Under the pieces are notes generated by a model. The model was not told the origin of the DNA and ran no database searches. It was given only the letters and a program-made list of their open reading frames with translations. Shown piece by piece: positions 26,529 through 43,661 of a stretch of DNA of 44,626 nucleotides. The DNA comes from Candidatus Omnitrophota bacterium (GTDB lineage Bacteria; Omnitrophota; Gorgyraeia; Zapsychrales; Fredricksoniimonadaceae): NCBI GenBank assembly GCA_015233165.1, contig JADFYF010000009.1, positions 1 through 44,626 of the forward strand. Direction: 5' to 3'. The position numbers were made by a program, and so were the translations under genes. Position 1 is the stretch's first letter, and the number at the start of each line of letters is the position of its first letter.

Positions 26529-27203
26529 TCAAAATTCCCTCTGAAACTTTAAACGAAAATCCTGGATATCTTCAGAAGTATATTGGGCTTCCTTTAATAT
26601 CTCCTTGTCCATGATGGTGGGTGCATCTACAAAGGACTGGAGCACATACGAACGGGGGGTACCCAAAAGAATCTGAATATCCTTTAAATCATTCTCTGAA
26701 CAATACTTTTTAACCAAGGTTGTACGAAACTGATGGCTTAAATTACTTTGAATAATCAGGTCAATGCTCTTTTTGATATGTTGGGTATCCACCTTAACCC
26801 CGATCACCTCTTCATAACGCGACAGGGAAGTTTTGATATCCATGGCGATAAAGTCCACCAAACCACCATCGATGATGGTCGCTAGAATATCCGGATGACT
26901 GCCATTAGTATCCAGCTTGATTTTAAAATTCATAGACCTTAATTTTGCCAAAAATTCTAACAACCCTTTCTGTATCGTCGGCTCCCCGCCCGTGACCACA
27001 ACGCCCTGCAATTTCCCCTGCCTGGATAATAAGAATTCCAAAACACTCCATTCTTCAATAGGATCCTGAAATTGCGAAGGACAAGCCAGTTGAGAATTGT
27101 GACAATATCCACAACGGAAATTGCAGCCCTGCGTAAACACAGTGGCTGCAATCTTTCCGGGGTAGTCAATCAAGGTGAATTTTTGAAACCCTCCTATACG
27201 CAT
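26529..27203 (-). CDS. nrdG: Anaerobic ribonucleotide reductase activating protein (radical SAM)
   Basis: Uses S-adenosylmethionine and a [4Fe-4S] cluster to form the glycyl radical on NrdD. 224 residues; the cluster motif is GCNFRCGYCHN (Cys27, Cys31, Cys34), with the start FQKFTLIDYPGKIAATVFTQG and the VVTGGEPT stretch usual for this activase group. It overlaps the last codons of nrdD by 10 bases, so reductase and activase are coupled. Oxygen-sensitive chemistry indicates an anaerobic or facultative life. Confidence 0.93.
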   Translation of the reverse strand: MRIGGFQKFTLIDYPGKIAATVFTQGCNFRCGYCHNSQLACPSQFQDPIEEWSVLEFLLSRQGKLQGVVVTGGEPTIQKGLLEFLAKLRSMNFKIKLDTNGSHPDILATIIDGGLVDFIAMDIKTSLSRYEEVIGVKVDTQHIKKSIDLIIQSNLSHQFRTTLVKKYCSENDLKDIQILLGTPRSYVLQSFVDAPTIMDKEILKEAQYTSEDIQDFRLKFQREF

Positions 27204-29299
27204 AGGCAGTAGGTTTTCCGTTCTTTAAACTCTTCCTTCTTGCCTTTATTCCATTGCTTAACAGGTCGTAAATATCCAACCACTCGTGAATAGACTTCGC
27301 ATTCTTTCTTGCAATGCGTACATTCATAATGTTCCCCTGCCAAATAACCACAACTAGGACACACACTGAAGGTCGGCGTAATAGTAAAGTACGGCAAACG
27401 GTAATTAGTGCAGATCGTTTTCACCAACTGTTTTAAGGCTTGAGGATCACAGATACGCTCTCCGACAAATCCATGAAGAACTGTCCCTCCGGTATACAGA
27501 GTTTGCAAATCATCCTGGTGATCCAACGCTTCAAAAACGTCGTCCGTGTATTGAACAGGTAAATGAGTGGAGTTGGAATAAAAAGGCTCATGCCCTAACA
27601 CATAATCCTTTTCGTTAGCACAAATAATGTCCGGAAACATCACCTTATCTAACTTGGCTAAACTATAGGAGGTCCCTTCCGCCGGGGTAGCTTCCAAATT
27701 ATAAATATTTCCTGTCTCACTTTGGAATTCCAAGAGCTTAGCACGCATGAACTCTAAAACGCGCACGGCAAATGCCTTACCTATAGGCGAAGCAATATCT
27801 TCTCCTAAAAGATTAAGACTAGCCTCATTCATCCCCAAAAGACCAATGGTTGAGAAATGATTCTTCCAATACTGATCAAAACGTTCCTTAACATGACGTA
27901 AATAAAATTTAATATAAGGATACAAATTCTCCTCGGTAAACTTCTCTAATATCTTTCGCTTCAACTCCAGACTTTCCTTGGCTAATAACATTTGCTGTTC
28001 TAAGCGAGATAGGAATTCTTCTTCGTTTTGAGACATCACGCCAATACGAGGAAGATTAATGGTGACAACCCCGATGGAACCTGTCAGTGGAGAAGCTCCG
28101 AATAAACCACCGCCACGACTTCTCAATTCCCGATTATCCAACCGTAGACGACAACACATACTCCTGGCATCTTCAGGATTCATATCGGAATTGATAAAAT
28201 TTGAGAAATAAGGAATCCCATACTTAGCTGTCATCTTCCACAGCAGTTCCAAATTAGGATTATCCCAATTAAAATCTTTCGTCATGTTATACGTCGGAAT
28301 AGGAAAAGAAAAAACTCGTCCCTTGGCGTCTCCCTCTAACATCACTTCCAAGAACGCTTTATTGAACATATCCATTTCGTTCTGGAAATCACCGTAAGTT
28401 TCTTTTTGAATCTCTCCTCCGATCACAACCCCCTGATTGACGTAATACGACGGGATTGTCAAATCCATGGTGATATTCGTAAAAGGAGTCTGAAAACCAA
28501 CTCTCGTCGGTACATTAATATTAAAAATAAATTCCTGCAAAGCCTGTTTGACGTCCTGATAAGACAGCTTATCAAAACGGATATAAGGAGCTAAAAGGGT
28601 GTCAAAATTGGAAAATGCCTGAGCGCCGGCCGCCTCTCCCTGCAAGGTATAAAAGAAATTCACAATCTGTCCTAAGGCGCTGCGTAGATGCTTAGGTGGT
28701 TTGCTTTCCATCTTTCCTGAAACACCCTTAAATCCCACCGTCAATAAATCCTGTAAATCCCAGCCAACGCAATACACACTGAGTAACCCCAGGTCGTGGA
28801 TATGCACATCCCCGTTTTGATGAGCCGCTTTAATAGCTGCCGGATAAATACGATTTAACCAGTATAACTTGCTGACTTCTGAGGACACATAGTGATTCAG
28901 TCCTTGCAACGAATACGCCATATTGCTATTTTCATTCACGCGCCAATCATTCTGTTTGAGATATTGGTCCACTAAATCCGTATTAAATTTAGAAGCAATC
29001 TCCCTGATTTCGGAATGTTTCTGACGATAAAGAATATAGGCCTTGGTAGTCTTACGATAGGAGGAGGATAAAAGAACATCTTCAACAATATCTTGAATAG
29101 CTTCAACGGTAGGGATTTCCTGAGGAAATAACTGCTGGGCAATATTGATGACTCTAACCGTCAGGGTCTTGGCGACCTATTCACCAAATTCTCCTGTGAC
29201 TTCTCCAGCTTTGCTAAGGGCGCTTGTAATTTTTTGAGACTGAAATTCTTCTGTCCTGCCATTGCGTTTAATAATGGAATTTAAAACAGCTACACCCAT
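27194..29299 (-). CDS. nrdD: Anaerobic ribonucleoside-triphosphate reductase with in-frame TAG at codon 41
   Basis: Class III reductase making dNTPs without oxygen. From the ATG at 29299 (ribosome site GGGAGGG) the frame gives an ATP-cone (SIIKRNGRTEEFQSQKITSAL), then a TAG at 29177-29179, then the cone continues in the same frame (VAKTLTVRV, EIPTVEAIQDIVEDVL, TKAYILYRQKHSEIREIA). The catalytic domain follows: VYCVGWDLQDLL, MCCRLRLDN; four zinc cysteines (CPSCG, CTHCKKEC); and the glycyl-radical site RVVGYLRPV with the Gly at about codon 675 of 701. The ORF track begins at a GTG at 28972, inside the normal protein and with no ribosome site. The lesion may be a mutation, a read error or read-through. 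Ends TAG, overlapping nrdG. Confidence 0.88.
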
Positions 29300-29850: not shown

Positions 29851-30474
29851 TTATTTCTTAGGTAGCGTATCGAGATCGGCCAGGGCATGAGCAATTTCGG
29901 TGCTTAAGGATGTACACACAACACTAAGCGTCTGAGCTAACCCAGAATAATTATGAAGGACGATTGGTTGTCGGAATTCAGATCGTTTGATCATCATCAT
30001 TTTGACATTCTGAGTATCCATAATCTGCCATTGGGCCACCAAAGACACATCCTTATCTAACTCGCTATCCAATTGAACAATTTCGACGATCACTTGATAT
30101 TTAACAGGCATCGATGCACTCCAGGGATACATGGTCAATGTTACCCCCGGAAGCAACCCGGTCAAATCTTCTCTGATTTGACGCGCCAGCCCAAGATCTA
30201 AGATCTCTGCCCAACGATCAAATTGCGCAAATTTGAGCATCTTATCCTTATTGATGGTTACCATTTGCGGCCTGTCTAAATATTGAGGAATCTTCACTGG
30301 TCCTACCCCAATAATAACATCAGAAGACATCTTTATTGTCTGCCCCATCGGAGATTCTCTGACGCTCGAAAGGGCATAGAACCTCGACGTCGGACTACTC
30401 TGAGCAGAAACACAACCACCTAAGCCCAAGAACAAAAAGCCGATCGCAAAAAAATTCCTGTTGAACTGTTTCAT
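29851..30474 (-). CDS. PqiC/MlaA-partner-like ABC transport auxiliary lipoprotein
   Basis: 207 residues, signal peptide with lipobox (FLFLGLGGCVSA), so an outer-membrane or periplasmic lipoprotein. The sequence then follows the ABC-type transport auxiliary lipoprotein (PqiC) pattern: RFYALSSV, VGPVKIPQYLDRPQMVT, FAQFDRWAEILDLGLARQIREDL and the late YSGLAQTLSVVCTSLSTEIAHAL. It is the last gene of the MCE operon, starting 1 base after mlaD, and probably links the MCE channel to the outer membrane. Confidence 0.85.
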   Translation of the reverse strand: MKQFNRNFFAIGFLFLGLGGCVSAQSSPTSRFYALSSVRESPMGQTIKMSSDVIIGVGPVKIPQYLDRPQMVTINKDKMLKFAQFDRWAEILDLGLARQIREDLTGLLPGVTLTMYPWSASMPVKYQVIVEIVQLDSELDKDVSLVAQWQIMDTQNVKMMMIKRSEFRQPIVLHNYSGLAQTLSVVCTSLSTEIAHALADLDTLPKK

Positions 30475-30475
30475 A

Positions 30476-31192
30476 CTACTCCCCCTTCATCACAGACTTA
30501 CCCTTTAAAATCGATTCCGGATGCTGTTCAAGATATTCCGTCAACAAATGGAAGGAACGCATCGCTTCCTTTGTCTCCTGAAATGTGTTTTGCATCTCAT
30601 AAAGACTTCGCTGCAAGTCCGGTGAATTGACCAACCGATTAATCCCTTGAGAGGTCGCTTCCAAATTCTTTGAAATCTCTTTAATAGGGATCTCATTCAT
30701 CAGTTCAAAAATATCCGTCGATGTAGGAAGCGTTGGCAATTCCGGATACTGATTAATAATCGCCCGAAGCTTTGCCGGTTGGTCCGGATAAAAATCAAAA
30801 GAAATCATCAGCTGCCCGGTTAGGAAGCTCTGCACTTCAAGCTTGGCCCGAAGACCCAAGGCGATCATCTTTTGATCACCACCTACTTCACCAAAACTCG
30901 GAGCGCCTTTGATTCTTCCCTGTTCAATCTCAACAATGACCGGAAGCATAATCGTCCCTGCCTTTGCATCATAAATCAGACTAATATTTCTGACGGTGCC
31001 AATGCTGACTCCCCGAAACATCACTGGAGCGCCGATGGCTAAGCCTTTGACAGACCCATCAAAATACAGCACAAATTTGTTAGTCTGTTTAAACAGCTCC
31101 CCTGAACCAAAAACCACTATAGCAACAAGCAAGAGCGCCAACGCTCCGATAACAAATACACCCATTAACGTTTTATTCACTTTCTTGCTCAT
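30476..31192 (-). CDS. mlaD: MCE-domain phospholipid-transport protein (MlaD-like)
   Basis: Periplasmic substrate-binding ring protein anchored by one N-terminal helix (TLMGVFVIGALALLLVAIVVFG). The MCE domain follows at about 40-120 (YFDGSVKGLAIGAPVMFRGVSIGTV), with a long C-terminal helical tail (LMNEIPIKEISKNLEATSQGI). 238 residues, longer than E. coli MlaD and closer in layout to single-MCE members next to PqiC-type lipoproteins. It works with MlaF and MlaE to move phospholipids between membranes. Confidence 0.9.
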   Translation of the reverse strand: MSKKVNKTLMGVFVIGALALLLVAIVVFGSGELFKQTNKFVLYFDGSVKGLAIGAPVMFRGVSIGTVRNISLIYDAKAGTIMLPVIVEIEQGRIKGAPSFGEVGGDQKMIALGLRAKLEVQSFLTGQLMISFDFYPDQPAKLRAIINQYPELPTLPTSTDIFELMNEIPIKEISKNLEATSQGINRLVNSPDLQRSLYEMQNTFQETKEAMRSFHLLTEYLEQHPESILKGKSVMKGE

Positions 31193-31204
31193 CGTTACAA
31201 CTCC

Positions 31205-31963
31205 TTACACTTTTGCTCTTGTTAAAAACTGAATGACCCTCGGATCTTTGGAATTCGCTAATAAATTCTTAGGATCTCCTGAAGCAATCATGGTCTGACT
31301 TTCCACATCTAAGAAGATCGAATTATTTCCTATGGCAAAGATACTGGGCAATTCATGCGTGATGACAACGATGGTTGCTCCTGAACTATCTCTGATATCC
31401 AAAATCAAATCGTCCAGCTTTCTGGAGTTGATCGGATCAAGACCGGCAGAGGGTTCATCAAAAAATATGATTTTCGGATCCAGCGCAATGGCGCGAGCCA
31501 GACTAGCTCTTCTTTGCATGCCTCCGCTTAATCCCGAGGGAAGATCATCTTCCTTCCCCTCTAAGCCTACTTTAGAAAGCTTTAGCGCCACCTTCTTCTT
31601 GATCTCAGAGGCCGATAGCTTTGTATAAAGCTGTAACGGCAGAGCCACATTCTCCTCGACCGTCAAAGAACTCCAGAGAGCTCCTCTTTGATAAAGAATT
31701 CCAAAACCTCTCGTCATCATCTGCATGCCCGTCTCATCTTCATCCCAAAAACTTTTCCCTTCATATAAAATCTTTCCCTTCATTGGCGCGCGTAATCCAA
31801 TTAAACTCTTAAGCAAGGTGCTTTTACCACAACCATTCATTCCCATCACAATGAAAATATCGCCTTTATTGATGCTGAAACTCAAATTATTCATCACCAC
31901 ATGATCTTCATAACCGATATCCAGACCTTGAACTTCAATAACAACCTCCGCTTGTGACGTCAT
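31205..31963 (-). CDS. mlaF: MlaF-like ABC transporter ATPase
   Basis: 252 residues with all ATPase motifs: Walker A GMNGCGKST (about 41-49), signature LSGGMQRRASLARAIALDP, Walker B IIFFDEPSAGLDP and switch ITHELPSIF. The text around the signature (DDLPSGLSGGMQRR) and the lack of membrane segments match MlaF. It sits between mlaE (3 bases upstream) and mlaD (12 bases downstream). It powers the MCE lipid transporter. Confidence 0.93.
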   Translation of the reverse strand: MTSQAEVVIEVQGLDIGYEDHVVMNNLSFSINKGDIFIVMGMNGCGKSTLLKSLIGLRAPMKGKILYEGKSFWDEDETGMQMMTRGFGILYQRGALWSSLTVEENVALPLQLYTKLSASEIKKKVALKLSKVGLEGKEDDLPSGLSGGMQRRASLARAIALDPKIIFFDEPSAGLDPINSRKLDDLILDIRDSSGATIVVITHELPSIFAIGNNSIFLDVESQTMIASGDPKNLLANSKDPRVIQFLTRAKV

Positions 31964-31966
31964 AGG

Positions 31967-32773
31967 CTACACTCCTAGAACCTGGCAGATATAGGTAATG
32001 ATGGCGGTGGCAATGACAATGCCGGTAATTCCACTGACAACGGCTGAGGTCGTCGCCATACCGACTCCGGCAGAATCTCGAATACAATTCATCCCACGAA
32101 GACAACCGGATACAGAAATAATCACCGCAAACGCAAGACTATGAACCAGCCCTATCCATACATAGCTGAGTTTAACTGAGAGCTGGGTATGGTTTATATA
32201 TTCCACAGGATTCAAATGAAGCATAACCGTACTGATCAAGAAACCACCGACGACTCCCATCAGATCCGCATAGATGGTCAGAATCGGCAACATAAGAACC
32301 AAGGCCAGAATACGAGGAACCACTAAGAACTCCACCGGCGAAACACCTAACGTTTTAAGGGCATCTATTTCTTCATTAGCCTGCATCATCCCAAGCTCTG
32401 CCCCAAACGACGCGCCGATACGACCCGCCACAATAATCCCCGTCATCACGGCCGACAACACCCGAACCATGGCAATTCCGACGATATCGGAAATATAAAT
32501 TTGCGCTCCAAACATTTTTAATTGTATCGATGCCACAAAAGCCAGAATCATACCGACTAACAGACTAATCAAAGAAACTAATAACAAGGAATCCACCCCA
32601 CACCTTCGAACAATGAGCAAAAAATCATTCCATCGAAAAAAAGACCTGCCTGTCATCAGACGCCCCAAGGACACGACAATATCCCCTAGAAAATTAAGCG
32701 CTACACGCAGACTCTCTGCCGTTTGCAGAACCTTTCCTCCTAAGCGATCAAGAAATAATTCCTGTGTTTTCAT
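31967..32773 (-). CDS. mlaE: MlaE-like permease of the MCE lipid transporter
   Basis: 268 residues with five or six hydrophobic segments and the MlaE core: LLLVSLISLLVGMILAF, GAQIYISDIVGIAMVRVLSAVMTGIIVAGRIGASFGAELGMM, then EEIDALKTLGVSPVEFLVVPR, the coupling helix for the ATPase. It is the first gene of the Mla operon; the ribosome site overlaps the end of the upstream small exported protein region. Inner membrane. Confidence 0.94.
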   Translation of the reverse strand: MKTQELFLDRLGGKVLQTAESLRVALNFLGDIVVSLGRLMTGRSFFRWNDFLLIVRRCGVDSLLLVSLISLLVGMILAFVASIQLKMFGAQIYISDIVGIAMVRVLSAVMTGIIVAGRIGASFGAELGMMQANEEIDALKTLGVSPVEFLVVPRILALVLMLPILTIYADLMGVVGGFLISTVMLHLNPVEYINHTQLSVKLSYVWIGLVHSLAFAVIISVSGCLRGMNCIRDSAGVGMATTSAVVSGITGIVIATAIITYICQVLGV

Positions 32774-33803: not shown

Positions 33804-34241
33804 TTAACGGTTCAATGCTAAACGATTACCCTCTTGATCTACCGATGAGAAATGCTCAGCAAGTTCGCCCTGAGACTTTAAACGACTGACCTGCATATTG
33901 CTTTGCGTTAACTTAACGCTACGGCCGGTTTCATCCTGAATGATTCTTTCCACCTGAGCTAAACTGGTACGCTTAGGATCAAATTTAACTTCTCTCAGAT
34001 GTCCATAACGTCCCCCTGGCAGATAAATCGTTCCGTTACTAAAATCGACTGCAAACGCAATGATACCGGGAATCAAGAAGAACAATAAACCGATCCCGTC
34101 AAGAATCACAACACCCGCATCTAAATGTCCGCCTCTTTGTCCCCGGCGTTCAGGATAAAAAAGCGTTCCGCATCCTGTTAATTGAAATACTAAAAGAACA
34201 ATCAGACTACCTTTCAGAACCTTTGTTATTGAGTTTTCCAT
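33804..34241 (-). CDS. Small lipoprotein with conserved CGTxxYPERRGQ start
   Basis: 145 residues. Signal peptide and lipobox (SLIVLLVFQLTGCGTLFYPERRGQ), then a second hydrophobic stretch (AGVVILDGIGLLFFLIPGIIAFAVDFSNGTIYLPGG) and a charged C-terminal half. The CGTxxYPERRGQ ... IPGIIAFAVDF arrangement is familiar from a family of unnamed proteobacterial lipoproteins with no assigned function. Ribosome site GAGGAG. Its start is separated by 32 bases from the CDP-alcohol transferase stop. Confidence 0.7.
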   Translation of the reverse strand: MENSITKVLKGSLIVLLVFQLTGCGTLFYPERRGQRGGHLDAGVVILDGIGLLFFLIPGIIAFAVDFSNGTIYLPGGRYGHLREVKFDPKRTSLAQVERIIQDETGRSVKLTQSNMQVSRLKSQGELAEHFSSVDQEGNRLALNR

Positions 34242-34273: not shown

Positions 34274-35029
34274 TTACCTGACCTTTAGTCGACGATCGAT
34301 ACGATTAAAAGCTTCTTTGGACCCCTCCTTCATGGTCAGCGCCTTAGTTTCTAATTTGGGACTAGTATTCATAGACTCCATCGATTGATGGACAGCATCC
34401 AGATGAGCATAAGTAATCTGTGATCGATAAACCGTCACGCCCAGGGCAATGAATAACGCTCCGACAAAAAACGGAAACGTATGAAGCAAAAGACCAGGAC
34501 CGGTCACGATCAGAATGGTATTAAAAACAATTAACAACATCCGGGCTTCCGATACTCCAAAATAACTAAAACTTATTTTGAAATGATTCGTGATAGAAAA
34601 ATCCATAATCGTATGAACCATAAACCCTGCGCTCAACATCAGACACAGCATAGACAATAGTGAATACGAAACAGGTAATAAGAAGGAATAGCCAATCACA
34701 ATGGAAGACAGAAAGACATAATCTAAGAAATGATCCATATAAAATCCCCACTTAATCAGACCTGTATTCCGTGATCGTCCGACGGCACCATCGAGCATAT
34801 CGGTAACATATTGAAGAAATATGCAACCGCTAAACATCCATAACCAACTCATATCCGCCTGAGCCCTATAACCAGCAAAGATGATCCCCACCGACCAAAG
34901 AATGGTCATCAGCGTTAGTTGTACGGTGCCTATCGGCAAAGGAACATGCGGCAGCGCTGCTGCAATGAATTTCTTTTCATAAGGAACAAGAAAATGAACT
35001 AACTCTTTTTTATCGCCTGCGAATTCCAT
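34274..35029 (-). CDS. CDP-alcohol phosphatidyltransferase family protein
   Basis: Integral membrane enzyme that transfers a phosphoalcohol from a CDP-linked donor, as in phospholipid headgroup synthesis. 251 residues, about six hydrophobic segments. The family motif D-x2-DG-x2-AR-x8/9-G-x3-D-x3-D is present as DMLDGAVGRSRNTGLIKWGFYMDHFLD, with Gly in place of the usual Ala. The member (phosphatidylglycerol, cardiolipin, inositol or other) cannot be told from this. Adjacent phosphodiesterase/EEP and autotransporter genes suggest an envelope-lipid context. Confidence 0.88.
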   Translation of the reverse strand: MEFAGDKKELVHFLVPYEKKFIAAALPHVPLPIGTVQLTLMTILWSVGIIFAGYRAQADMSWLWMFSGCIFLQYVTDMLDGAVGRSRNTGLIKWGFYMDHFLDYVFLSSIVIGYSFLLPVSYSLLSMLCLMLSAGFMVHTIMDFSITNHFKISFSYFGVSEARMLLIVFNTILIVTGPGLLLHTFPFFVGALFIALGVTVYRSQITYAHLDAVHQSMESMNTSPKLETKALTMKEGSKEAFNRIDRRLKVR

Positions 35030-35050
35030 GATTGAACCCCTCTCTTTAAG

Positions 35051-37183
35051 TTAGAAACGACTCGTCACTCTCATCATCACCTGATGAGCACTATACCCAT
35101 CTGTTCTCCAGTTATAATCATAAACAGCTTCCAGCGACCAGGTTCTCTTGCCACACGTACATGACAACAAGGAAACGCCACCGCCGACATTAAACGTATT
35201 CGCATTCGGTCTTGGACCCGGCGTTGTAAATTCTCCTGATCCCGAAGCTGTATACGAAGCTGTCTGCGACATTCTTGGACTAAAAAGTTCATGAAGCCAT
35301 TGGGTATGAACTTCAGGAACAAGAGTCCCCCCCTTATAACTCAAAGGACGCTCCACCTTCACCCCCAACCCTGATTCCAGAAAATCATAGTTCTTCGACT
35401 TAACCCGAAGGTTGATATCCCCGGCTCCCGTTTCCGTATACCCTCTTTGATGCAAGCGGCTATACTGCATCGTCTTAATCGGCGTGATGACAAACTTCTT
35501 AACGGCCAGGTGATACCCACTGCTCGTAAAAAAGGTGTAATTCTGTCCTTGGTACCTGGAATTCGCTGTACGATCCACGCCGGGATAGACAATGTGTCTC
35601 ATCCCTGAATAGTCATTCCAACCAAAGGACGCGCTCGCATCCGTAAACCAAGGTCCATTTTCATGACCGATGTACGCCGTTGTTTGGTAGGTATTCATAT
35701 CCACATTAGCGTCGAATGTCTTTCCGTTAATAGTGCTTCGTCCATAACCAAGACCTAAACCTGCCCGGGTGTTAAGACCAATGGGAACATCGTAAGCAAT
35801 CATGCTGCCATAGGTTCTGCTGTCATACTCCGTGAAACCATTCCTGGCGCTTTGATTAGCAAAATTCCCAAACCCTTTAGCCCACCAACCACTCACAGGA
35901 GCATTATCTTGGCAGTTCGTATTTTCTTCCTCTGTCGTACTAAAATGGCTGCACATATCCAAACGAGATAACCAAAGATCCTGATACTGACGAATCCCTT
36001 GAAAGATCACCAGAGGAGCTGATAACGCCGGAGTGGATGGGGCTAACTGCGCTTCCGCATTTGCTACCGCATTGGCATTCGTCAGAGCATTGATCGACGT
36101 TAAAACCGTATTGATATCCGGCGTTGTCGGAATCGCTTCTAAAACAGGAATGACAGCGGCCGCAATGGGCTGATTCTGACCTGCCTGCAATGGCGTGCTC
36201 GATGTTTGTATTTGGCCCTGACCCGCCGGAGTCGTGACAATAGAAAATTTGTAAAGAGGATTGGTGGGATCTGCAACCGTAGCAATGGCGCCAGAACCGC
36301 TGCCCTGGACAACATTAAACTGATCTCCCACCTTGATTAAAGATGTTGAGGGGATATTCACATTAAGAGCCAGTCCTGTTCCAAGATCCGCAGGCCCACC
36401 TGTCACAACAACATGACCAAACACCGACGGGCTAAACAGGATGGTATCGATAACTCCGTTAGATGCCATCGTTAAAGCTCCGGAGATATTTAACGTATTG
36501 GTTCCCAGAGAAAAGGCATAGGTGTCAACGGCGCCACTGATGGTTGCGTTAACTCCGGCCGAATTGCTTCCGCCGACAACGTTAATCGATCTAACCCCAT
36601 TCGCCCCACCGACAGCGCCAAACAGTTCGCTTCCACCGGCCAAGGACAACGTCCCCGTCTGAGCTGTATTGGTTGTCATAGCTCCCGTCAATGTCGCATT
36701 GGCCACAAGACTGATCGTGCCGTCACCCGTAAAGTTCGTCGCTACAATATTGACTGGCCCCATAAAATTTGTTGTCCCCGTTGCAGAATCTAAGGTCCCT
36801 GAATAGACGGACCCAAGAAAATTGACCGTCGTGCCTGCCATCGATTGGATATAAAGAAGCCTTGTTCCGGTGGCCCCCATATCTCCATAGACGGTTGAAC
36901 TGCTATTGAATACGACAGTCCCTTGCAAATTCGAACTACTAGAGACAGCGGCCGGGACAGTTGCCAAAGAGATGTTGCTTGTAAAAATATCCTTCTCTGC
37001 CCCCCCTAAGGTCCCTACCAATAAGGTGGTTAATCCCGTCAGGGAAACGCCATTTAATCCCCCATCCACGCTTAACTGACCGGGAGAAGCAACGTCAGCG
37101 GGAATATTTTCCCTGGCAAAACCTGGTGAACTTAAGACTGTGACAACAACAGCCAAAAACATAACAAATAATATTCTCCTCAT
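35051..37183 (-). CDS. Autotransporter-type outer-membrane protein
   Basis: 710 residues. Signal peptide (MRRILFVMFLAVVVTVLSSPGFA), then a passenger of about 380 residues made of repeated beta strands rich in Gly, Thr and Asn (TGAMTTNTAQTGTLSLAGGS, VDTYAFSLGTNTLNISGALTM) typical of a beta-helix. The last 280 residues are an autotransporter barrel: WWAKGFGNFANQ, YDSRTYGSMIAYDVPIG, AGLGLGYGRSTI, alternating strands and a terminal aromatic (MMRVTSRF). The passenger function is unknown. It starts within the stop of the phosphodiesterase-EEP gene (ATGA) and uses a ribosome site made from that gene's last codons. Confidence 0.88.
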   Translation of the reverse strand: MRRILFVMFLAVVVTVLSSPGFARENIPADVASPGQLSVDGGLNGVSLTGLTTLLVGTLGGAEKDIFTSNISLATVPAAVSSSSNLQGTVVFNSSSTVYGDMGATGTRLLYIQSMAGTTVNFLGSVYSGTLDSATGTTNFMGPVNIVATNFTGDGTISLVANATLTGAMTTNTAQTGTLSLAGGSELFGAVGGANGVRSINVVGGSNSAGVNATISGAVDTYAFSLGTNTLNISGALTMASNGVIDTILFSPSVFGHVVVTGGPADLGTGLALNVNIPSTSLIKVGDQFNVVQGSGSGAIATVADPTNPLYKFSIVTTPAGQGQIQTSSTPLQAGQNQPIAAAVIPVLEAIPTTPDINTVLTSINALTNANAVANAEAQLAPSTPALSAPLVIFQGIRQYQDLWLSRLDMCSHFSTTEEENTNCQDNAPVSGWWAKGFGNFANQSARNGFTEYDSRTYGSMIAYDVPIGLNTRAGLGLGYGRSTINGKTFDANVDMNTYQTTAYIGHENGPWFTDASASFGWNDYSGMRHIVYPGVDRTANSRYQGQNYTFFTSSGYHLAVKKFVITPIKTMQYSRLHQRGYTETGAGDINLRVKSKNYDFLESGLGVKVERPLSYKGGTLVPEVHTQWLHELFSPRMSQTASYTASGSGEFTTPGPRPNANTFNVGGGVSLLSCTCGKRTWSLEAVYDYNWRTDGYSAHQVMMRVTSRF

Positions 37184-39510
37184 AGAAACAACTCCTTTGT
37201 ATCTGCATCCACGGTGGATGACTTATGAATGGGGTTAACTGCCAACAACTCTATCTGCTCAAAACTTAACTCTGCGATAATCGGCAAATGATCGGAAGCC
37301 AAGCGTTCTAACGCCGTATGAAACACCTCAATAGAATCCACCCGAAACTCCGGCGTCACAAAAATATGATCAATACGCATCAAAGGGTATCTTGCCAACC
37401 AAGTCTTCGTCGGTTTAGAACCTTCCACCATCAATTGACTATCCTTAAATCGTTTGCAGATTTCTTTATAGACAGGCGAGTTCGGCACCATATTGAGATC
37501 TCCGCACAAAATGACAGGTCCGCTGCAATCCGGATGTTCGACCCAATTGCCATCCAACAGGGCTTTAATCTGAAGCAGCCGTTCCTTAGGCCATAAACTC
37601 AAATGCGTATTAATAATATTGATTTTTGTTCCCTGAAAATCGACCACCACCCAAATGGCTCCACGAAATTCCAGGAAGGCCTTGTCCCACAACTTAGGTA
37701 AAACGTCTTTCTTAATTAACGCCATAGGATAGCGACTGAGAATGGCATTGCCGTATTGCTCATCATCCTTGCTAAAGGCGGGATGAAACTGAAGAAACAT
37801 GCCTAATCTTTGGGCAATTCTTTGCGCCTGATCAATTCCAAACGAACGCAAACGTCCTGAATCTAACTCTTGCAAGGCCACAACATCAGGTTTGTAGCGG
37901 GCAATGACCCGGATGATGCGATCGGTGGAAATCCGCCCGTCCATCCCCTTACATCCATGGACGTTATAACTCATCATGCGTAGCGACTTGGAATCAACAC
38001 TCTGAGGTGACTTAGAAATTCGATAAAAAGATTTTTCACTTAAGAAATTCTGCGCGGCTTTTCGTAAATCCATCGGTCGAATATAATTCTTGCCGTTAGA
38101 TTCAATATCCACATCCATCGGAAGAAGAGCAAAACCCTTTGTTTCTTCAGGCCCCGCTCCGGCATGAGCCCCATATTCCAATGGAAAGCTGATCGCCGCC
38201 TCGTCTTTGCACCATCCCAAAATAATAAAATCACCGGCATCAGAATGATGACAGACACGCAAAACGTCCTCGGTAACTTCACCAAGAAAAGGGTGATCCT
38301 CGCCAAAGACGTCCTTGCTCTGTTCAGGTAACATAAATGCGCCACGTTTAGTCCATGCTAAGGCTTTATGATTACCTAAAGGAACAATCACCAATGGAAT
38401 ATGCGCTTCCTCCACCAATTTCCGGGCGAAGAACTCTATCTGATTCTTGGCTAAATCTCTTTGCACATAAATATGCCCCACAGGACCCATGGCTGCGACA
38501 ATCGCTTTAGGCTCCTTAAATATTTTCTCAATCGCCTGATCAATCGTCATGCCGTATTTAATCAGATACGGAGCAGTCTTTTCCTGTCCATGGTCGCTGT
38601 ATACCCATAAATCATATTCGCGATACGCTGATTTCTTGATCACACGATCAATCCGTCGGATGGCATCATCAACTCCCAAAAGAGACCAATGCGCAAACTT
38701 GGAGGAAGGTCCTCGGCAATGAGCCTGTTCATCGTATCCTAATAAATTCAAATGAATAACCGGCAGGCCGCGAATGATATCTATCGAAGCCCCAGCGGTA
38801 ATAAATTCACGAAGAAAAACACAGATCAGAGCTCTTAACCAAATCAACTCTAATTCTCTTAAGAACACCCTTCCCTTAAGCGTCCCCCGAATACAGTCAA
38901 AAATGGAGATGACCAATTCCACCGTCAATAAAAGAACCGTTCTTATAAAAATGTCGATGTATAAAATCACCAGGAAAGGAAATACCAATGGATTAACCGC
39001 GTGTAAGAACCCCTTCCAACCCATATTCCCCCAACAAAAATGCGCCTCCTCGGCTCCTCCGGCAAAAATATTGGAATAGGAGCTTCCTCCCGATAACAAT
39101 CCCTGACCCTGCGTTTTTAAATCCGCCTCAACGCTAGAAACATAGGCGGTATCATTCATCTTGATAGGCTGTCCCGTCTTGTTATCTACAAAACTAAACG
39201 CAGGAACGCAGGTTTTGATACCGTAAAAGAGTTCTCCCTGGACAGAGGGTGTATTCGAAGGTACCCCTGAATAAAAAGTGTGAAGGGCATAACGTTCTTT
39301 CTGCAGCAGAGAATTAAGAAATGGAAGATGTCCGTCGCTGATAGCTTTCTGAAATTGAGTCTGAGATAACCCATCAATCTGAATCATCACGAGTCCGGGC
39401 TTCTGGGCCGACTCCTTTAACCTGGAGAGTCTAAGCAGACGAATAGCCCATTCACTGCGGCTAAGAAAAGACCGTAACTGTATTACAAATGTCTTCACCT
39501 GAATAATCAT
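37180..39510 (-). CDS. Fusion: alkaline-phosphatase-superfamily phosphodiesterase + EEP (exo/endonuclease/phosphatase)
   Basis: 776 residues with two enzyme domains. Residues of about 38-500 resemble a type I phosphodiesterase/nucleotide-pyrophosphatase: metal Asp46 in MIQIDGLSQ, nucleophile region SNTPSVQGELFYG (Thr87), YDEQAHCRGP and VYSDHGQEK. A hydrophobic stretch (about 165-240) suggests membrane attachment. Residues of about 510-760 are an EEP domain: MSYNVHGCKGMDG, DVVALQELD, NAILSRYP, INTHLSLWP, CGDLNMVPNSP, RIDHIFVTPEF and SDHLPIIAEL. Such EEP domains cleave phosphodiester or phosphoester bonds in lipids, sugars or nucleic acids. There is no N-terminal signal peptide. It overlaps its upstream neighbour by four bases and the autotransporter gene by four. 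Confidence 0.87.
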   Translation of the reverse strand: MIIQVKTFVIQLRSFLSRSEWAIRLLRLSRLKESAQKPGLVMIQIDGLSQTQFQKAISDGHLPFLNSLLQKERYALHTFYSGVPSNTPSVQGELFYGIKTCVPAFSFVDNKTGQPIKMNDTAYVSSVEADLKTQGQGLLSGGSSYSNIFAGGAEEAHFCWGNMGWKGFLHAVNPLVFPFLVILYIDIFIRTVLLLTVELVISIFDCIRGTLKGRVFLRELELIWLRALICVFLREFITAGASIDIIRGLPVIHLNLLGYDEQAHCRGPSSKFAHWSLLGVDDAIRRIDRVIKKSAYREYDLWVYSDHGQEKTAPYLIKYGMTIDQAIEKIFKEPKAIVAAMGPVGHIYVQRDLAKNQIEFFARKLVEEAHIPLVIVPLGNHKALAWTKRGAFMLPEQSKDVFGEDHPFLGEVTEDVLRVCHHSDAGDFIILGWCKDEAAISFPLEYGAHAGAGPEETKGFALLPMDVDIESNGKNYIRPMDLRKAAQNFLSEKSFYRISKSPQSVDSKSLRMMSYNVHGCKGMDGRISTDRIIRVIARYKPDVVALQELDSGRLRSFGIDQAQRIAQRLGMFLQFHPAFSKDDEQYGNAILSRYPMALIKKDVLPKLWDKAFLEFRGAIWVVVDFQGTKINIINTHLSLWPKERLLQIKALLDGNWVEHPDCSGPVILCGDLNMVPNSPVYKEICKRFKDSQLMVEGSKPTKTWLARYPLMRIDHIFVTPEFRVDSIEVFHTALERLASDHLPIIAELSFEQIELLAVNPIHKSSTVDADTKELFL

Positions 39511-39890
39511 GATTGACCTGTTAATTCCTTGATCGTGCTATCAGTATTAAACATAGCCATCCATCTGTCCTTGGTAAAAAAATACGCAACAATAGCTGCT
39601 GCTGACAGAAGGTAAAAAACAGCGCAAATCAAGGTGACCGTCACTTTGACAGACACCTCCCATGGGGCATAAATGAAAATCGTACAATGAATAAGAACGA
39701 CACCTGTCAAAAGAAGCACCAGGCATGCCCCTGACCCCAAAAGACTAATAAATAATAAACGGGATACCTTAACAGCATGCAAATACATCGTCGCCAGCCT
39801 GACCCTCGTTACATCTTCCGCACACGCCACTGTCCCCTGCAAAAATTTGGAAACAAAAATACATAAACCCGTCATGAGAATTTTATTCAT
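39507..39890 (-). CDS. Small membrane protein with two or three helices, unknown function
   Basis: 127 residues. Hydrophobic segments near 40-75 (LFISLLGSGACLVLLLTGVVLIHCTIFI) and 82-108 (VKVTVTLICAVFYLLSAAAIVAYFF) with a basic N-terminus. The Cys/Gly-rich layout and size are reminiscent of membrane-anchored holin-III-like or ElaB/YqjD-partner proteins, but I see no diagnostic motif. Its stop overlaps the phosphodiesterase-EEP start (ATGA), so the two are coupled. Ribosome site AAAAGGACA. Confidence 0.55.
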   Translation of the reverse strand: MNKILMTGLCIFVSKFLQGTVACAEDVTRVRLATMYLHAVKVSRLLFISLLGSGACLVLLLTGVVLIHCTIFIYAPWEVSVKVTVTLICAVFYLLSAAAIVAYFFTKDRWMAMFNTDSTIKELTGQS

Positions 39891-40244: not shown

Positions 40245-41507
40245 TTAATTAATCAGCAAAGCTTCAGTGGCATGAGTTAAATTCTTAGCCACTCCCCATT
40301 GAACCTGAAAAGATCGAATAGCATTAGACCAAAAACCATCCGCATGTTTACGACGGAAAAATCCCTTATTCACTGACAACGATATATAAATATCCAATGC
40401 TTTTTGAGCGCATTTTTTCATTTCAAATCTCTGAGCTGTTATCTGACACGCTTCTCTGATTTTCTTAATCCGAAAAACAGGCTGTTTTCTAATCCACCCA
40501 AGAGCAGAAACAAAATCCTCAATATTTTCATTCATCAACAGACGACCATTCACAAAATCTTGAACAACCTCCCGAACTCCGGGAGCATCCACCGCCACCA
40601 CAGGAATACCTGCGGCCATCGCCTCTGTGACTACCAACCCTTGTGTTTCACTTTGAGAGGCAAAGACAAACACATCCATCGCGTCATAGGCATTGACAAG
40701 GTCCTTCCCCTTAAGCATCCCTGCTAAATGCAGACGATCCATCACACCTTCTTGCATCATAATTTCCTTAATGGAATCTTCTGAAGGACCCGTACCGCCT
40801 ATTAAAAAATGAGCCTTAGGTTCTTTCTTAAGAAACAAAGCGACAGCTTTCGTCATGAATTCCAAGTTCTTCTCCGAAGCGAGTCGTCCTATATGCCCCA
40901 CCACAAAAACATCCTGAGGAATATTTAATTTCTTGCGAAAAGTCTTACCGGCTCCCTTGGTAAACGAAGCCGTGTAGATTCCCGTCGGGACAACATCAAC
41001 AGCTGTGACTACCCCTCTCTCCTTCATCATCTGCATCACACTTTCACTAGGAGCAAACACATGATCTGCCAGATTGGCATAGCCCGTGGATAATTCGATA
41101 ACAAAACGTTTAAGGGCTTCTTCATTGCCGGGCATATAATGCACATTTTCTTCATAGAGGCTGTGGTGGGTAAATACCAGAGGCACATTGTATTTAGAAG
41201 CTATCCTCAAAGCGGTGTCACCGATAAAGAACGGATGATGAGCATGGACAATGTGAGGTTGAAAATCGCCCAAAGCTTCCGTTAATGTTCCTTGAATCGG
41301 CATCTGAACAGAAAAATCTGATCCGTAATAATTCTGAATAGAGGGAATACGAATGACATCTTCTTCCGGTTGCATATCCGGAAACTCAGGAGCAACAATA
41401 ATGACCCGATGACCTGCATCCCTGTATTCCTTACTAAAGCAACTCACAGATTTCTCTAAACCACCCACGATGGGCTTATAGGTATTAGTCATCATTAAAA
41501 TATTCAT
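40245..41507 (-). CDS. Glycosyltransferase family 4 protein
   Basis: I start at MNILMMTNTYKPIVGGLE, the usual N-terminus of GT4 enzymes; the ORF-track start adds 13 residues without a better ribosome site. 420 residues in two Rossmann-like halves (GT-B): N-terminal GGLEKSVSCFS and VHAHHPFFIGDTALRIA, C-terminal VVGHIGRLASEKNLEF, FLIGGTGPSED, and the nucleotide-sugar site SQSETQGLVVTEAMAAGIPVVAVD with the catalytic Glu. Best guess from pattern is a phosphatidyl-inositol mannoside or diacylglycerol glucosyl type enzyme, but the acceptor is open. Cytoplasmic, peripheral to the membrane. Confidence 0.9.
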   Translation of the reverse strand: MNILMMTNTYKPIVGGLEKSVSCFSKEYRDAGHRVIIVAPEFPDMQPEEDVIRIPSIQNYYGSDFSVQMPIQGTLTEALGDFQPHIVHAHHPFFIGDTALRIASKYNVPLVFTHHSLYEENVHYMPGNEEALKRFVIELSTGYANLADHVFAPSESVMQMMKERGVVTAVDVVPTGIYTASFTKGAGKTFRKKLNIPQDVFVVGHIGRLASEKNLEFMTKAVALFLKKEPKAHFLIGGTGPSEDSIKEIMMQEGVMDRLHLAGMLKGKDLVNAYDAMDVFVFASQSETQGLVVTEAMAAGIPVVAVDAPGVREVVQDFVNGRLLMNENIEDFVSALGWIRKQPVFRIKKIREACQITAQRFEMKKCAQKALDIYISLSVNKGFFRRKHADGFWSNAIRSFQVQWGVAKNLTHATEALLIN

Positions 41508-41521
41508 AGTGTTCTCTCTTG

Positions 41522-41570
41522 AAGAAACAAAGGACAGCTTCCTCATTGTTGAATGCCTAAGAAGCTGTCC
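41522..41570 (-). terminator. Rho-independent terminator after the exported-protein gene
   Basis: GGACAGCTTC and GAAGCTGTCC pair perfectly over 10 bases around a 19-base loop; on the minus strand it is followed by TTTGTTTCTTC. It comes just after the stop at 41578 and ends about 15 bases before the GT4 start. Confidence 0.78.
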
Positions 41571-42283: not shown

Positions 42284-42727
42284 CTACCTGCCTCTTTCTT
42301 CACCTCGTTCGTTCTTATCATGTTTACCATCATCACGTCTGCCATTATCATGCCCACGATAAATGGGAGCGCGAACCACTTCATAACCACGAGGGCCATG
42401 TCTGTAATACGCATTATGCGACCTGTAGTAAACCTCCCCATCCATATCCACGCGTTGATAATGAGCGGGCTCGTTATAAATCACAGCTCCCACAGGCGCC
42501 TCCACTATCACATAGCGACCGGGTGCTCCCGTGTAATAAACTCCATCGTTGTAATAATACCTGTCATTACCGACGACAACCTGTGTATACACCCGGTTTG
42601 ATCTTTGGGGACTCATCCATCCAAAATCAAAAGACCAGGCCTGCGCCGGTTGAACCTGAATTAAAACACCCAACAACAGAATGGATGCCATTACAAACAG
42701 CTTCTTTGAGTTCTTTGTATTCTTCAT
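42284..42727 (-). CDS. DUF6515-like exported protein
   Basis: 147 residues with a signal peptide (FVMASILLLGVLIQVQPAQAW), Tyr-rich body (YYYNDGVYYTGAPGRYVIVEAPVGAVI, YYRSHNAYYRHGPRGYEVV) and a basic/acidic tail (GRRDDGKHDKNERGEERGR). The paired YYxxxGVYYxPxxxGYxVVxAP pattern is that of DUF6515 proteins, exported proteins of unknown function. Ribosome site AAGGAG. Located 16 bases downstream of the BON gene. Confidence 0.75.
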   Translation of the reverse strand: MKNTKNSKKLFVMASILLLGVLIQVQPAQAWSFDFGWMSPQRSNRVYTQVVVGNDRYYYNDGVYYTGAPGRYVIVEAPVGAVIYNEPAHYQRVDMDGEVYYRSHNAYYRHGPRGYEVVRAPIYRGHDNGRRDDGKHDKNERGEERGR

Positions 42728-42743
42728 CTTAGACTCCTTGTAT

Positions 42744-43139
42744 TTATTGTTTCTTATGAGTAACTTCGATATGATTCTTAACTTTTTCGCCTTCGGCCAA
42801 AGCCAAAGCTGTATTCGTAGCCAGATTCATTTGCTGGTCTGTGGATACTGCTCCGTCTAAAGTGATCGTCCCGTCTTTCACAGTGACCTTAATAGCGCTC
42901 GCCACCGGAGTTAAACTCTGATCATCTTTAATAGCTTCCTTGATGACAAAGGCCGCTTGATGATCCTCAAGAACCTTCAGAGCGTCTGTTTCTTTTGTAT
43001 TCATCGGTTGCGTGTTGGGGCTTCCCTCACTGATATAACGCGACACCTGAATATCGTTCTTAACAGACTCTCTGGCTTTGTCTTTGTTGACATCTGCTTG
43101 TACCGCCTGAGAGCAGGTGTGGTTGAGTATTTTTGTCAT
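42744..43139 (-). CDS. BON-domain protein
   Basis: 131 residues. The second half is a BON domain: AFVIKEAIKDDQSLTPVASAIKVTVKDGTITLDGAVSTDQQMNLATNTALALAEGEKVKNHIEV. BON domains bind phospholipid membranes and occur in osmotically induced envelope proteins such as OsmY. The N-terminus is odd: it lacks a signal peptide and instead holds a polar 60-residue stretch, so either the start is further upstream in another form or the protein is cytoplasmic. It starts 30 bases after the ferritin stop. Confidence 0.85.
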   Translation of the reverse strand: MTKILNHTCSQAVQADVNKDKARESVKNDIQVSRYISEGSPNTQPMNTKETDALKVLEDHQAAFVIKEAIKDDQSLTPVASAIKVTVKDGTITLDGAVSTDQQMNLATNTALALAEGEKVKNHIEVTHKKQ

Positions 43140-43169
43140 AGCATCCTTCTTTCGAAATAAATACCATTC

Positions 43170-43661
43170 CTATTTACGTTGTCCAAGTTCATGATCAAAT
43201 ACGACGACTCCTTCAGTGGTATTCTTGATGAACTTAAAATTCTCAACGTTATTCTTGGCTGTATTTTCTTCCTCGACCTGTTCGGTAATAAACCACTGCA
43301 GCATGATCTCTGTGGCATAATCCCCTTCAGATCTCGCTAAATTTATCAGATCGTGGATCTGCCCCGTAACCGTTAACTCCTGGGCATAGGCCGATTCAAA
43401 AACAGATAAGAATGATTTCCATTGCTCTTGCGGCGCTTCAATGGATGTCAATACAACTATCCCTCCTCTGGAAATGATATATTCGTACAATCTCATCGCA
43501 TGCTTGAATTCCTCGTTGGATTGAACCTTATACCACGCAGCAAAACCTGTCATGTGATGAGACCCAAAGTACGCCGCCATCGACAAATAAGAATAAAAAG
43601 CTCCCAGTTCCACATTAATTTGTTTATTCAGAGCCTTCTCAATCTTGGACTTGATAACCAT
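43170..43661 (-). CDS. ftnA: Ferritin (FtnA-like)
   Basis: Iron-storage protein forming a 24-subunit shell that oxidises Fe(II). 163 residues in a four-helix bundle with the ferroxidase residues in place: Glu18 (INVELGAFYSYLSMA), Glu51 and His54 (SNEEFKHAMRLYEYI), Glu95 and the TEQVEEE stretch near 127-131. No heme-binding Met marks it as bacterioferritin. Ribosome site TTAGGAG. Neighbours are a small lipoprotein upstream and BON/DUF6515 genes downstream, a stress-type cluster. Confidence 0.93.
   Translation of the reverse strand: MVIKSKIEKALNKQINVELGAFYSYLSMAAYFGSHHMTGFAAWYKVQSNEEFKHAMRLYEYIISRGGIVVLTSIEAPQEQWKSFLSVFESAYAQELTVTGQIHDLINLARSEGDYATEIMLQWFITEQVEEENTAKNNVENFKFIKNTTEGVVVFDHELGQRK

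Follow-up and report, generated by a model that had tools for sequence, protein, structure and literature searches.

A conserved GT4-phosphodiesterase-EEP gene cassette in Omnitrophota and other bacteria as a candidate membrane lipid-converting system

The window analysed in this work is a DNA stretch of 44,626 nucleotides from a Candidatus Omnitrophota bacterium (contig JADFYF010000009.1 of assembly GCA_015233165.1). It encodes a protein in which an AlkP/NPP-type phosphodiesterase (PDE) is fused to an endonuclease/exonuclease/phosphatase (EEP) domain. The conserved partner of this PDE-EEP protein is a GT4 glycosyltransferase, whose gene lies outside the cluster (34274-39890) that had been singled out in an earlier sequence-only reading of the window. 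The wider cassette begins with a VTT protein, followed by a glycosidase-like protein of (alpha/alpha)6 fold, GT4, and PDE-EEP. We consider it somewhat probable that PDE-EEP is a membrane-docked lipid enzyme of the cytoplasmic face that cooperates with GT4, cutting or exchanging phospholipid head groups alongside glycolipid synthesis. The main features of the window are as follows.

40245-41546, minus strand: GT4 glycosyltransferase of 433 amino acids (Pfam PF13439/PF00534), which adjoins or is fused to PDE-EEP in relatives.
37180-39510, minus strand: PDE-EEP fusion of 776 amino acids, AlkP/NPP-type phosphodiesterase followed by the EEP domain.
38770-39018, minus strand: hydrophobic helical insert, PDE residues 165-247, recognised from hydropathy, model helices, and column statistics.

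The PDE domain occupies approximately residues 36-495 of the 776-residue chain and the EEP domain approximately residues 507-752. Both domains scored above the Pfam cut-offs, with 38.5 bits for PF01663 (cut-off 23; 42.6 bits in the homolog of L087) and 104 bits for PF03372 (cut-off 24.5). The structure was predicted with a predicted local distance difference test score (pLDDT) of 86.6 and a predicted template modelling score (pTM) of 0.88. The PDE fold resembles XacNPP (7mw8; Z 25.6, root-mean-square deviation 3.0 over 327 residues) and also matches the mammalian NPP5, NPP6, and NPP7. The EEP fold matches 4ruw with Z 30.5, and its other matches include unassigned bacterial EEP proteins, TDP2, and neutral sphingomyelinase. 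Overall, the fold matches of both domains have Z of about 25-30.

The structural alignment (A5) consists of the window and 56 of the 80 loci described below, after removal of rows whose matched span contains a stop. All 16 catalytic positions (seven in PDE and nine in EEP) are invariant in the 57 aligned sequences. The PDE set of D46, T87, D260, H264, D306, H307, and H449 corresponds to the metal and nucleophile motif (D, T, D, H, D, H, H) of AlkP/NPP enzymes. The EEP residues N516, E548, D671, N673, D714, and H741, likewise present in 57 of 57, correspond to the N/E/D/N/D/H catalytic motif of EEP enzymes. The hydrophobic insert is modelled as two helices (185-211 and 216-247), in which the charged residues E198, E219, R226, and R234 are invariant and R190 is present in 56 of the 57 sequences. 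Because the insert is hydrophobic and yet carries invariant charges, a membrane-docked hairpin fits better than plain spanning helices. The sequence-only reading had described two phosphoester-cleaving domains joined in one chain with a membrane segment. Both domains are confirmed, and the segment is an insert within the PDE domain.

The scan of 84,980 species genomes returned 340 PDE-EEP relatives, of which the best 80 loci were kept for the counts. Loci and genomes are denoted below by L and G numbers. The PDE and EEP parts share one frame in all 80 loci. The matched span has no stop in 70 loci and one stop in each of the other ten, all of which are listed with a single PDE and EEP frame. 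The whole fusion was also found by protein search in 16 of the 55 genomes of relatives, the genome of the window included, and two further genomes (G029 and G053) have matches that are weak or confined to EEP. The fusion is therefore biological and not an artefact of a frameshift, a possibility that the sequence-only reading had raised against itself. In one locus (G123:C53, L153:4142-6429), PDE and EEP are encoded by two frames that overlap; it is a split or frameshifted copy, and the intact fusion is on another contig of the same genome.

The 80 loci are distributed over about a dozen phyla. They belong to Pseudomonadota (28), Omnitrophota (23), Thermodesulfobacteriota (9), Nitrospirota (5), Nitrospinota (5), and Myxococcota (3), with one each in six other phyla and one unassigned; these counts follow NCBI names, and bins may contain foreign contigs. 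A quick tree search, with 19 of its 54 inner branches left open, places the PDE-EEP of the window in a clade with seven Omnitrophota-titled loci, with support of 100 in the Shimodaira-Hasegawa-like approximate likelihood-ratio test (SH-aLRT). A viral origin was considered and rejected, as the six pattern matches in viral contigs include no relative. Among plasmids, 219 records matched, none of which covers 80% of the PDE-EEP query, and in the ten listed the match is limited to the EEP part.

GT4 adjoins PDE-EEP in 61 of the 71 loci that have at least 1,500 bases upstream, often by way of ATGA, and a 4-base overlap is present in 26. GT4 does not adjoin PDE-EEP in L038, L040, L041, L042, L043, L044, L056, L067, L106, and L113. 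It lies farther along the same stretch in L038, L040, and L042, several genes upstream in L067, and downstream on the opposite strand in L113. The stretch of L041 is without GT4, and L028, apparently from the same contig, ends with GT4. In one group of relatives GT4, PDE, and EEP are united in a single GT4-PDE-EEP chain. This form, with GT4 at the front and chains of approximately 1,240 amino acids, occurs in some Omnitrophota and was found in five of the 80 loci. All seven long frames tested from the genomes of relatives are also GT4 fusions, and their first 420 residues are 46-50% identical to the GT4 of the window. The top NCBIfam model for GT4 is alpha-monoglucosyldiacylglycerol synthase (NF049988) in both members tested. 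The resemblances of GT4 include PimA and MshA, and polysaccharide-type transferases match too. No N-terminal hydrophobic or signal-like segment was found by hydropathy in PDE-EEP or GT4. This, together with the fusion to a nucleotide-sugar enzyme, points to the cytoplasmic face as the probable location of PDE-EEP.

A pair of genes for a thiamine-diphosphate enzyme and an aldehyde dehydrogenase was observed beside the cassette in L038, L040, L041, and L042. In L065 such a pair is located farther downstream and is more distant in sequence.

The (alpha/alpha)6 protein has 750-790 amino acids, and its gene is upstream of and adjoins GT4 in 50 of the 61 loci whose upstream sequence extends to 4,200 bases or more. 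A VTT protein (PF09335) precedes the (alpha/alpha)6 gene in 27 of those 50 loci. Examples of this family are listed below.

L030:1533-3908: (alpha/alpha)6 family member.
L087:4417-6669: (alpha/alpha)6 family member.
L119:8310-10634: copy in the genome of the window.

Neither Pfam nor NCBIfam has a match for the (alpha/alpha)6 protein. The structure predicted for it (pLDDT 81.9) has a glycosidase or phosphorylase fold, which matches the structures of GH15/GH65 and dextran dextrinase with Z of about 28-31, and the matches include phosphorylases, among them glucosylglycerol phosphorylase. Many acidic residues are invariant in the alignment of 23 glycosidase loci (A2), again without rows that have a stop within the matched part. 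The search of PDB sequences with the glycosidase profile returned only weak matches to glucoamylase and dextran dextrinase (E 0.1-0.2). These fold matches, and several hosts that are marine or saline by name, would suit a cassette for soluble alpha-glucosides of the compatible-solute or glycogen-like kind, in which GT4 would make the glucoside, the (alpha/alpha)6 protein would degrade it, and PDE-EEP would dephosphorylate an intermediate. However, the hydrophobic insert of PDE-EEP is conserved, and its remaining partners are enzymes of membranes or lipids; we regard this explanation as unlikely.

The relatives also exhibit exchange of partners. Seven stand-alone EEP genes were found among 285 genomes of the phylum, and all of them were examined. 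Six (G053, G252, G277, G112, G298, and G084; the exception is G231) adjoin a phospholipase-D (PLD)/cardiolipin-synthase-like gene, and GT4 accompanies the pair in G053, G252, and G298. The window itself has no PLD gene. The order in G053 and G252 is EEP, PLD/cardiolipin-synthase-like gene, glycosidase, VTT, and GT4, where PDE is gone and PLD is in its place. The order in G298 is VTT, GT4, EEP, and PLD, and the glycosidase is not in the stretch. Replacement of PDE by PLD beside the glycosidase was rejected as a general rule, since it holds only for G053 and G252, which are of one genus. Twenty further loci were taken from 20 of the 28 genomes that have the glycosidase without PDE-EEP, and among these loci G252 alone has this replacement. 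An acyl carrier protein (ACP)-acyltransferase gene immediately follows the glycosidase in 12 of the 20 and adjoins it in the genome of the window as well; one of the 12 (L131) ends at a contig edge and matches over 60 residues only. Tight rows of glycosidase, ACP-acyltransferase, and GT4 were observed in L138:6642-12150 and L134:3845-10076, and the GT4 of L134 is fused to an alpha/beta hydrolase. In Sinorhizobium meliloti pSym (L120:4064-7816), a stand-alone EEP that is 42% identical adjoins a PLD protein and is also beside a membrane protein with a weak, below-cut-off match to LPG_synthase_TM.

Four of the partner types, namely PLD-type cardiolipin synthases, PlsC-like acyltransferases, CDP-alcohol phosphatidyltransferases, and VTT proteins, either act on glycerolipids or transport lipids. 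The exchangeable PLD/cardiolipin-synthase-like and acyltransferase partners thus point to lipids as the subject of the cassette. The same partners speak against an explanation in which the cassette would build or recycle polyprenyl-phosphate-linked sugars, with GT4 extending them, PDE and EEP cutting pyrophosphate or nucleotide-sugar bonds, and VTT flipping the carrier. The top-scoring GT4 model, a diacylglycerol glucosyltransferase, also does not suit it. Nevertheless, the sole NCBIfam match of VTT is a weak one to an undecaprenyl-phosphate transporter (20.6 of 250 bits), nucleotide pyrophosphatases occur among the fold matches, and the matches of GT4 to polysaccharide-type transferases would be in keeping with it. 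We judge this explanation rather improbable.

The mechanism that we propose is one of lipid conversion. The AlkP/NPP-type domain, with its threonine nucleophile and two-metal site, would attack the phosphodiester of a phospholipid, and the EEP domain would cleave another phosphoester, either in that substrate or in the product. The lipid released or remodelled in this way, in the simplest case diacylglycerol, may then be passed to GT4, which would attach an alpha-linked sugar. Transport of the lipid across the membrane may fall to the VTT protein, and trimming or recycling of the sugar to the (alpha/alpha)6 protein. In the lineage of the window, the set is joined by a CDP-alcohol phosphatidyltransferase.

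Several observations weigh against this mechanism. PF01663 and PF03372 are broad families. The predicted folds by themselves do not give the substrate, as these folds act on several other substrates, and the top fold match of EEP is an unassigned enzyme, with a sugar phosphatase and DNA/RNA enzymes in a similar score range. The scores of GT4 for NF049988 (143.7 bits in the window and 150.6 bits in the second member) are far below the 400-bit cut-off. The membrane role of the charged insert is a presumed one. The genome of the window has the (alpha/alpha)6 gene on a separate contig from PDE-EEP. In the 69 upstream regions tested (of 80), Pho-box-like sites were no commoner than in dinucleotide shuffles (the mean fraction of shuffles that were at least as good is 0.66), as judged with an E. 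coli consensus that is weak for distant phyla. A phosphate-starvation version of the mechanism is therefore without support.

The minus strand carries all genes around PDE-EEP in the window, with GT4 first and then the 127-amino-acid protein, PDE-EEP, autotransporter, CDP-alcohol transferase, and 145-amino-acid protein. Beyond the 145-amino-acid gene there are more small genes, and then MlaE, MlaF, MlaD, and an ABC_trans_aux lipoprotein.

39507-39890, minus strand: 127-amino-acid protein that has two hydrophobic helices and overlaps PDE-EEP by ATGA.
35051-37183, minus strand: autotransporter of 710 amino acids (PF03797), probably outside the cassette.
34274-35029, minus strand: CDP-alcohol phosphatidyltransferase of 251 amino acids (PF01066).
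33804-34241, minus strand: 145-amino-acid lipoprotein-like protein, which adjoins the CDP-alcohol transferase, PDE-EEP, or Mla genes in relatives.
29851-32773, minus strand: MlaE, MlaF, MlaD, and ABC_trans_aux lipid-transport cluster (PF02405, PF00005, PF02470, and PF03886; NCBIfam for MlaE/MlaF; synteny with L121, L124, and L125).

The 127-amino-acid protein has no Pfam match. Its homologs immediately precede PDE-EEP in four of the 80 loci (L038, L039, L040, and L042), every one from Omnitrophota.

The CDP-alcohol transferase scored 29.7 bits for PF01066 (cut-off 22). It carries DMLDG and DHFLD, which correspond to the signature of these enzymes (D-x2-D-G...D-x3-D), with a spacing one residue longer than usual and Gly in place of the usual Ala. 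It is present in four of the 80 loci: in L077, L083, and L090 it is the next gene downstream of PDE-EEP, and in L044 it is close by. Close homologs were found in six of the 55 genomes of relatives (one of them the genome of the window), and these six all belong to the 16 genomes with PDE-EEP (hypergeometric P 2.8e-4, shared ancestry ignored). The sequence-only reading had remarked on a phospholipid-headgroup-type transferase next to the fusion, and this link recurs in Omnitrophota, where the CDP-alcohol transferase belongs with PDE-EEP. A pathway similar to that of phosphatidylinositol mannosides was also considered, in which the CDP-alcohol transferase would make phosphatidylinositol phosphate, PDE-EEP would dephosphorylate it, and GT4 would glycosylate it. 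A weak match (18.5 of 180 bits) between the transferase and archaetidylinositol phosphate synthase and the resemblance of GT4 to PimA and MshA are consistent with such a pathway. However, the inositol-phosphate synthase PF01658 was not found in the genome of the window, which is 78% complete (6 of 14 control genomes were positive), and most cassettes lack the CDP-alcohol transferase. We consider this pathway very unlikely.

The autotransporter scored 185.6 bits for its C-terminal beta domain (PF03797; cut-off 26), and thus all four Pfam domains expected by the sequence-only reading (PF01663, PF03372, PF03797, and PF01066) are above cut-off in the expected proteins. The gene junctions are also as it had described them. 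The 127/776 and 776/710 junctions are each a 4-base ATGA overlap, and the ribosome site of the autotransporter is an AGGAG within the final codons of the PDE-EEP gene that ends 8 bases before the ATG. The 710/251 junction has a 21-base gap and no overlap. From the overlap a fixed stoichiometry between a surface beta-barrel protein and the enzyme had been proposed, that is, translational coupling that would hold both at a fixed ratio for joint work. The genuine overlap and the embedded ribosome site of this contig favour such coupling, but no homolog of the autotransporter was found in any of the 80 PDE-EEP loci at a threshold of 1e-8. The condition that the sequence-only reading had named for its own refutation also applies, as no other contig examined has this order of PDE-EEP and autotransporter. 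Good orthologs are present in five relatives (G018, G022, G025, G027, and G031), none of them near PDE-EEP. Three of these (G022, G025, and G031) have PDE-EEP on a different contig, and the other two have no PDE-EEP. The orthologs are instead beside Mla genes: immediately before MlaEFD in G022, G018, and G027, with the 145-amino-acid gene in between in the latter two, and approximately 2 kb away in G025; in G031 no Mla genes are within the stretch around the autotransporter. The C-terminal tail of the PDE-EEP of the window (753-776, approximately 24 residues) is poorly predicted and absent from most relatives, as a recent junction might leave it. The coupling is largely refuted and we hold it to be very improbable. 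Of the accompanying suggestion that the enzyme could process lipid or glycan phosphoesters, the lipid part is plausible, and the coupling to a surface beta-barrel is not supported.

The autotransporter is probably a local neighbour that is interleaved here and lies outside the cassette. As it sits with Mla genes in relatives, two lipid-related blocks are interleaved in the window. Its position before MlaEFD in Omnitrophota (L121, L124, and L125, two of which have the 145-amino-acid gene in between) is an observation in its own right, by which it may be a partner in outer-membrane lipid transport. Elsewhere in the window, a row of DUF6515, BON-domain, and ferritin-like genes (42284-43661) is perhaps an envelope-stress group, and an anaerobic ribonucleotide reductase with its radical-SAM partner is at 26529-28972.

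Both active sites are intact, and the gene order and coupling of the cassette are conserved over a range that extends from Omnitrophota to Gammaproteobacteria. The cassette probably determines the composition of membrane lipids in the species of several hundred genomes. From the single-chain GT4-PDE-EEP form it is predicted that all three steps take place on one lipid, and carriers that are cultured by name, Rheinheimera and Marinobacter, make the cassette directly testable. More tentatively, the single-chain and split forms may together be an undescribed lipid-converting machine of about a dozen phyla, a membrane-docked assembly for conversion of phospholipid to glycolipid or for head-group transfer, in which PDE-type and PLD-type modules would be interchangeable phosphatidyl cutters, with a glycosidase family absent from Pfam alongside.

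No description of the GT4-PDE-EEP cassette was found in searches of open-licence papers, and the cassette is a member of neither of the two known systems closest to it below. YbhP is an EEP protein, and PlcP has one domain and belongs to a different superfamily (metallophosphoesterase). The Pfam search of PDE-EEP returned no metallophosphoesterase (PlcP-family) model and returned PF01663 and PF03372 instead. The ybhP-clsB-ybhN operon, which is named in PMC9241728 and whose third product is a membrane protein, similarly has a close EEP domain beside a phospholipid-phosphodiester enzyme, the PLD-type cardiolipin synthase, as do the EEP-PLD pairs in relatives of the cassette and in S. meliloti. 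In the cassette, however, an AlkP/NPP-type PDE fused to EEP is in the place of PLD, and GT4, VTT, and the (alpha/alpha)6 protein are added. In PlcP-Agt lipid remodelling, a phospholipid-cleaving enzyme is encoded with a lipid glycosyltransferase according to PMC4796936. The cassette similarly encodes a putative phospholipid cleaver with a lipid-type glycosyltransferase, but it differs in having two phosphoesterase domains in one chain, extra partners, and no Pho-box support. NPP6/NPP7 and neutral sphingomyelinase are separate eukaryotic enzymes with low identity (11-21%), whereas their folds are those of PDE and EEP, respectively, and both folds include phospholipid cutters. The (alpha/alpha)6 protein, which is without a Pfam or NCBIfam match as stated above and is 11-15% identical to the structures of the GH15/GH65 clan, shares with that clan the (alpha/alpha)6 fold with an N-terminal beta domain.

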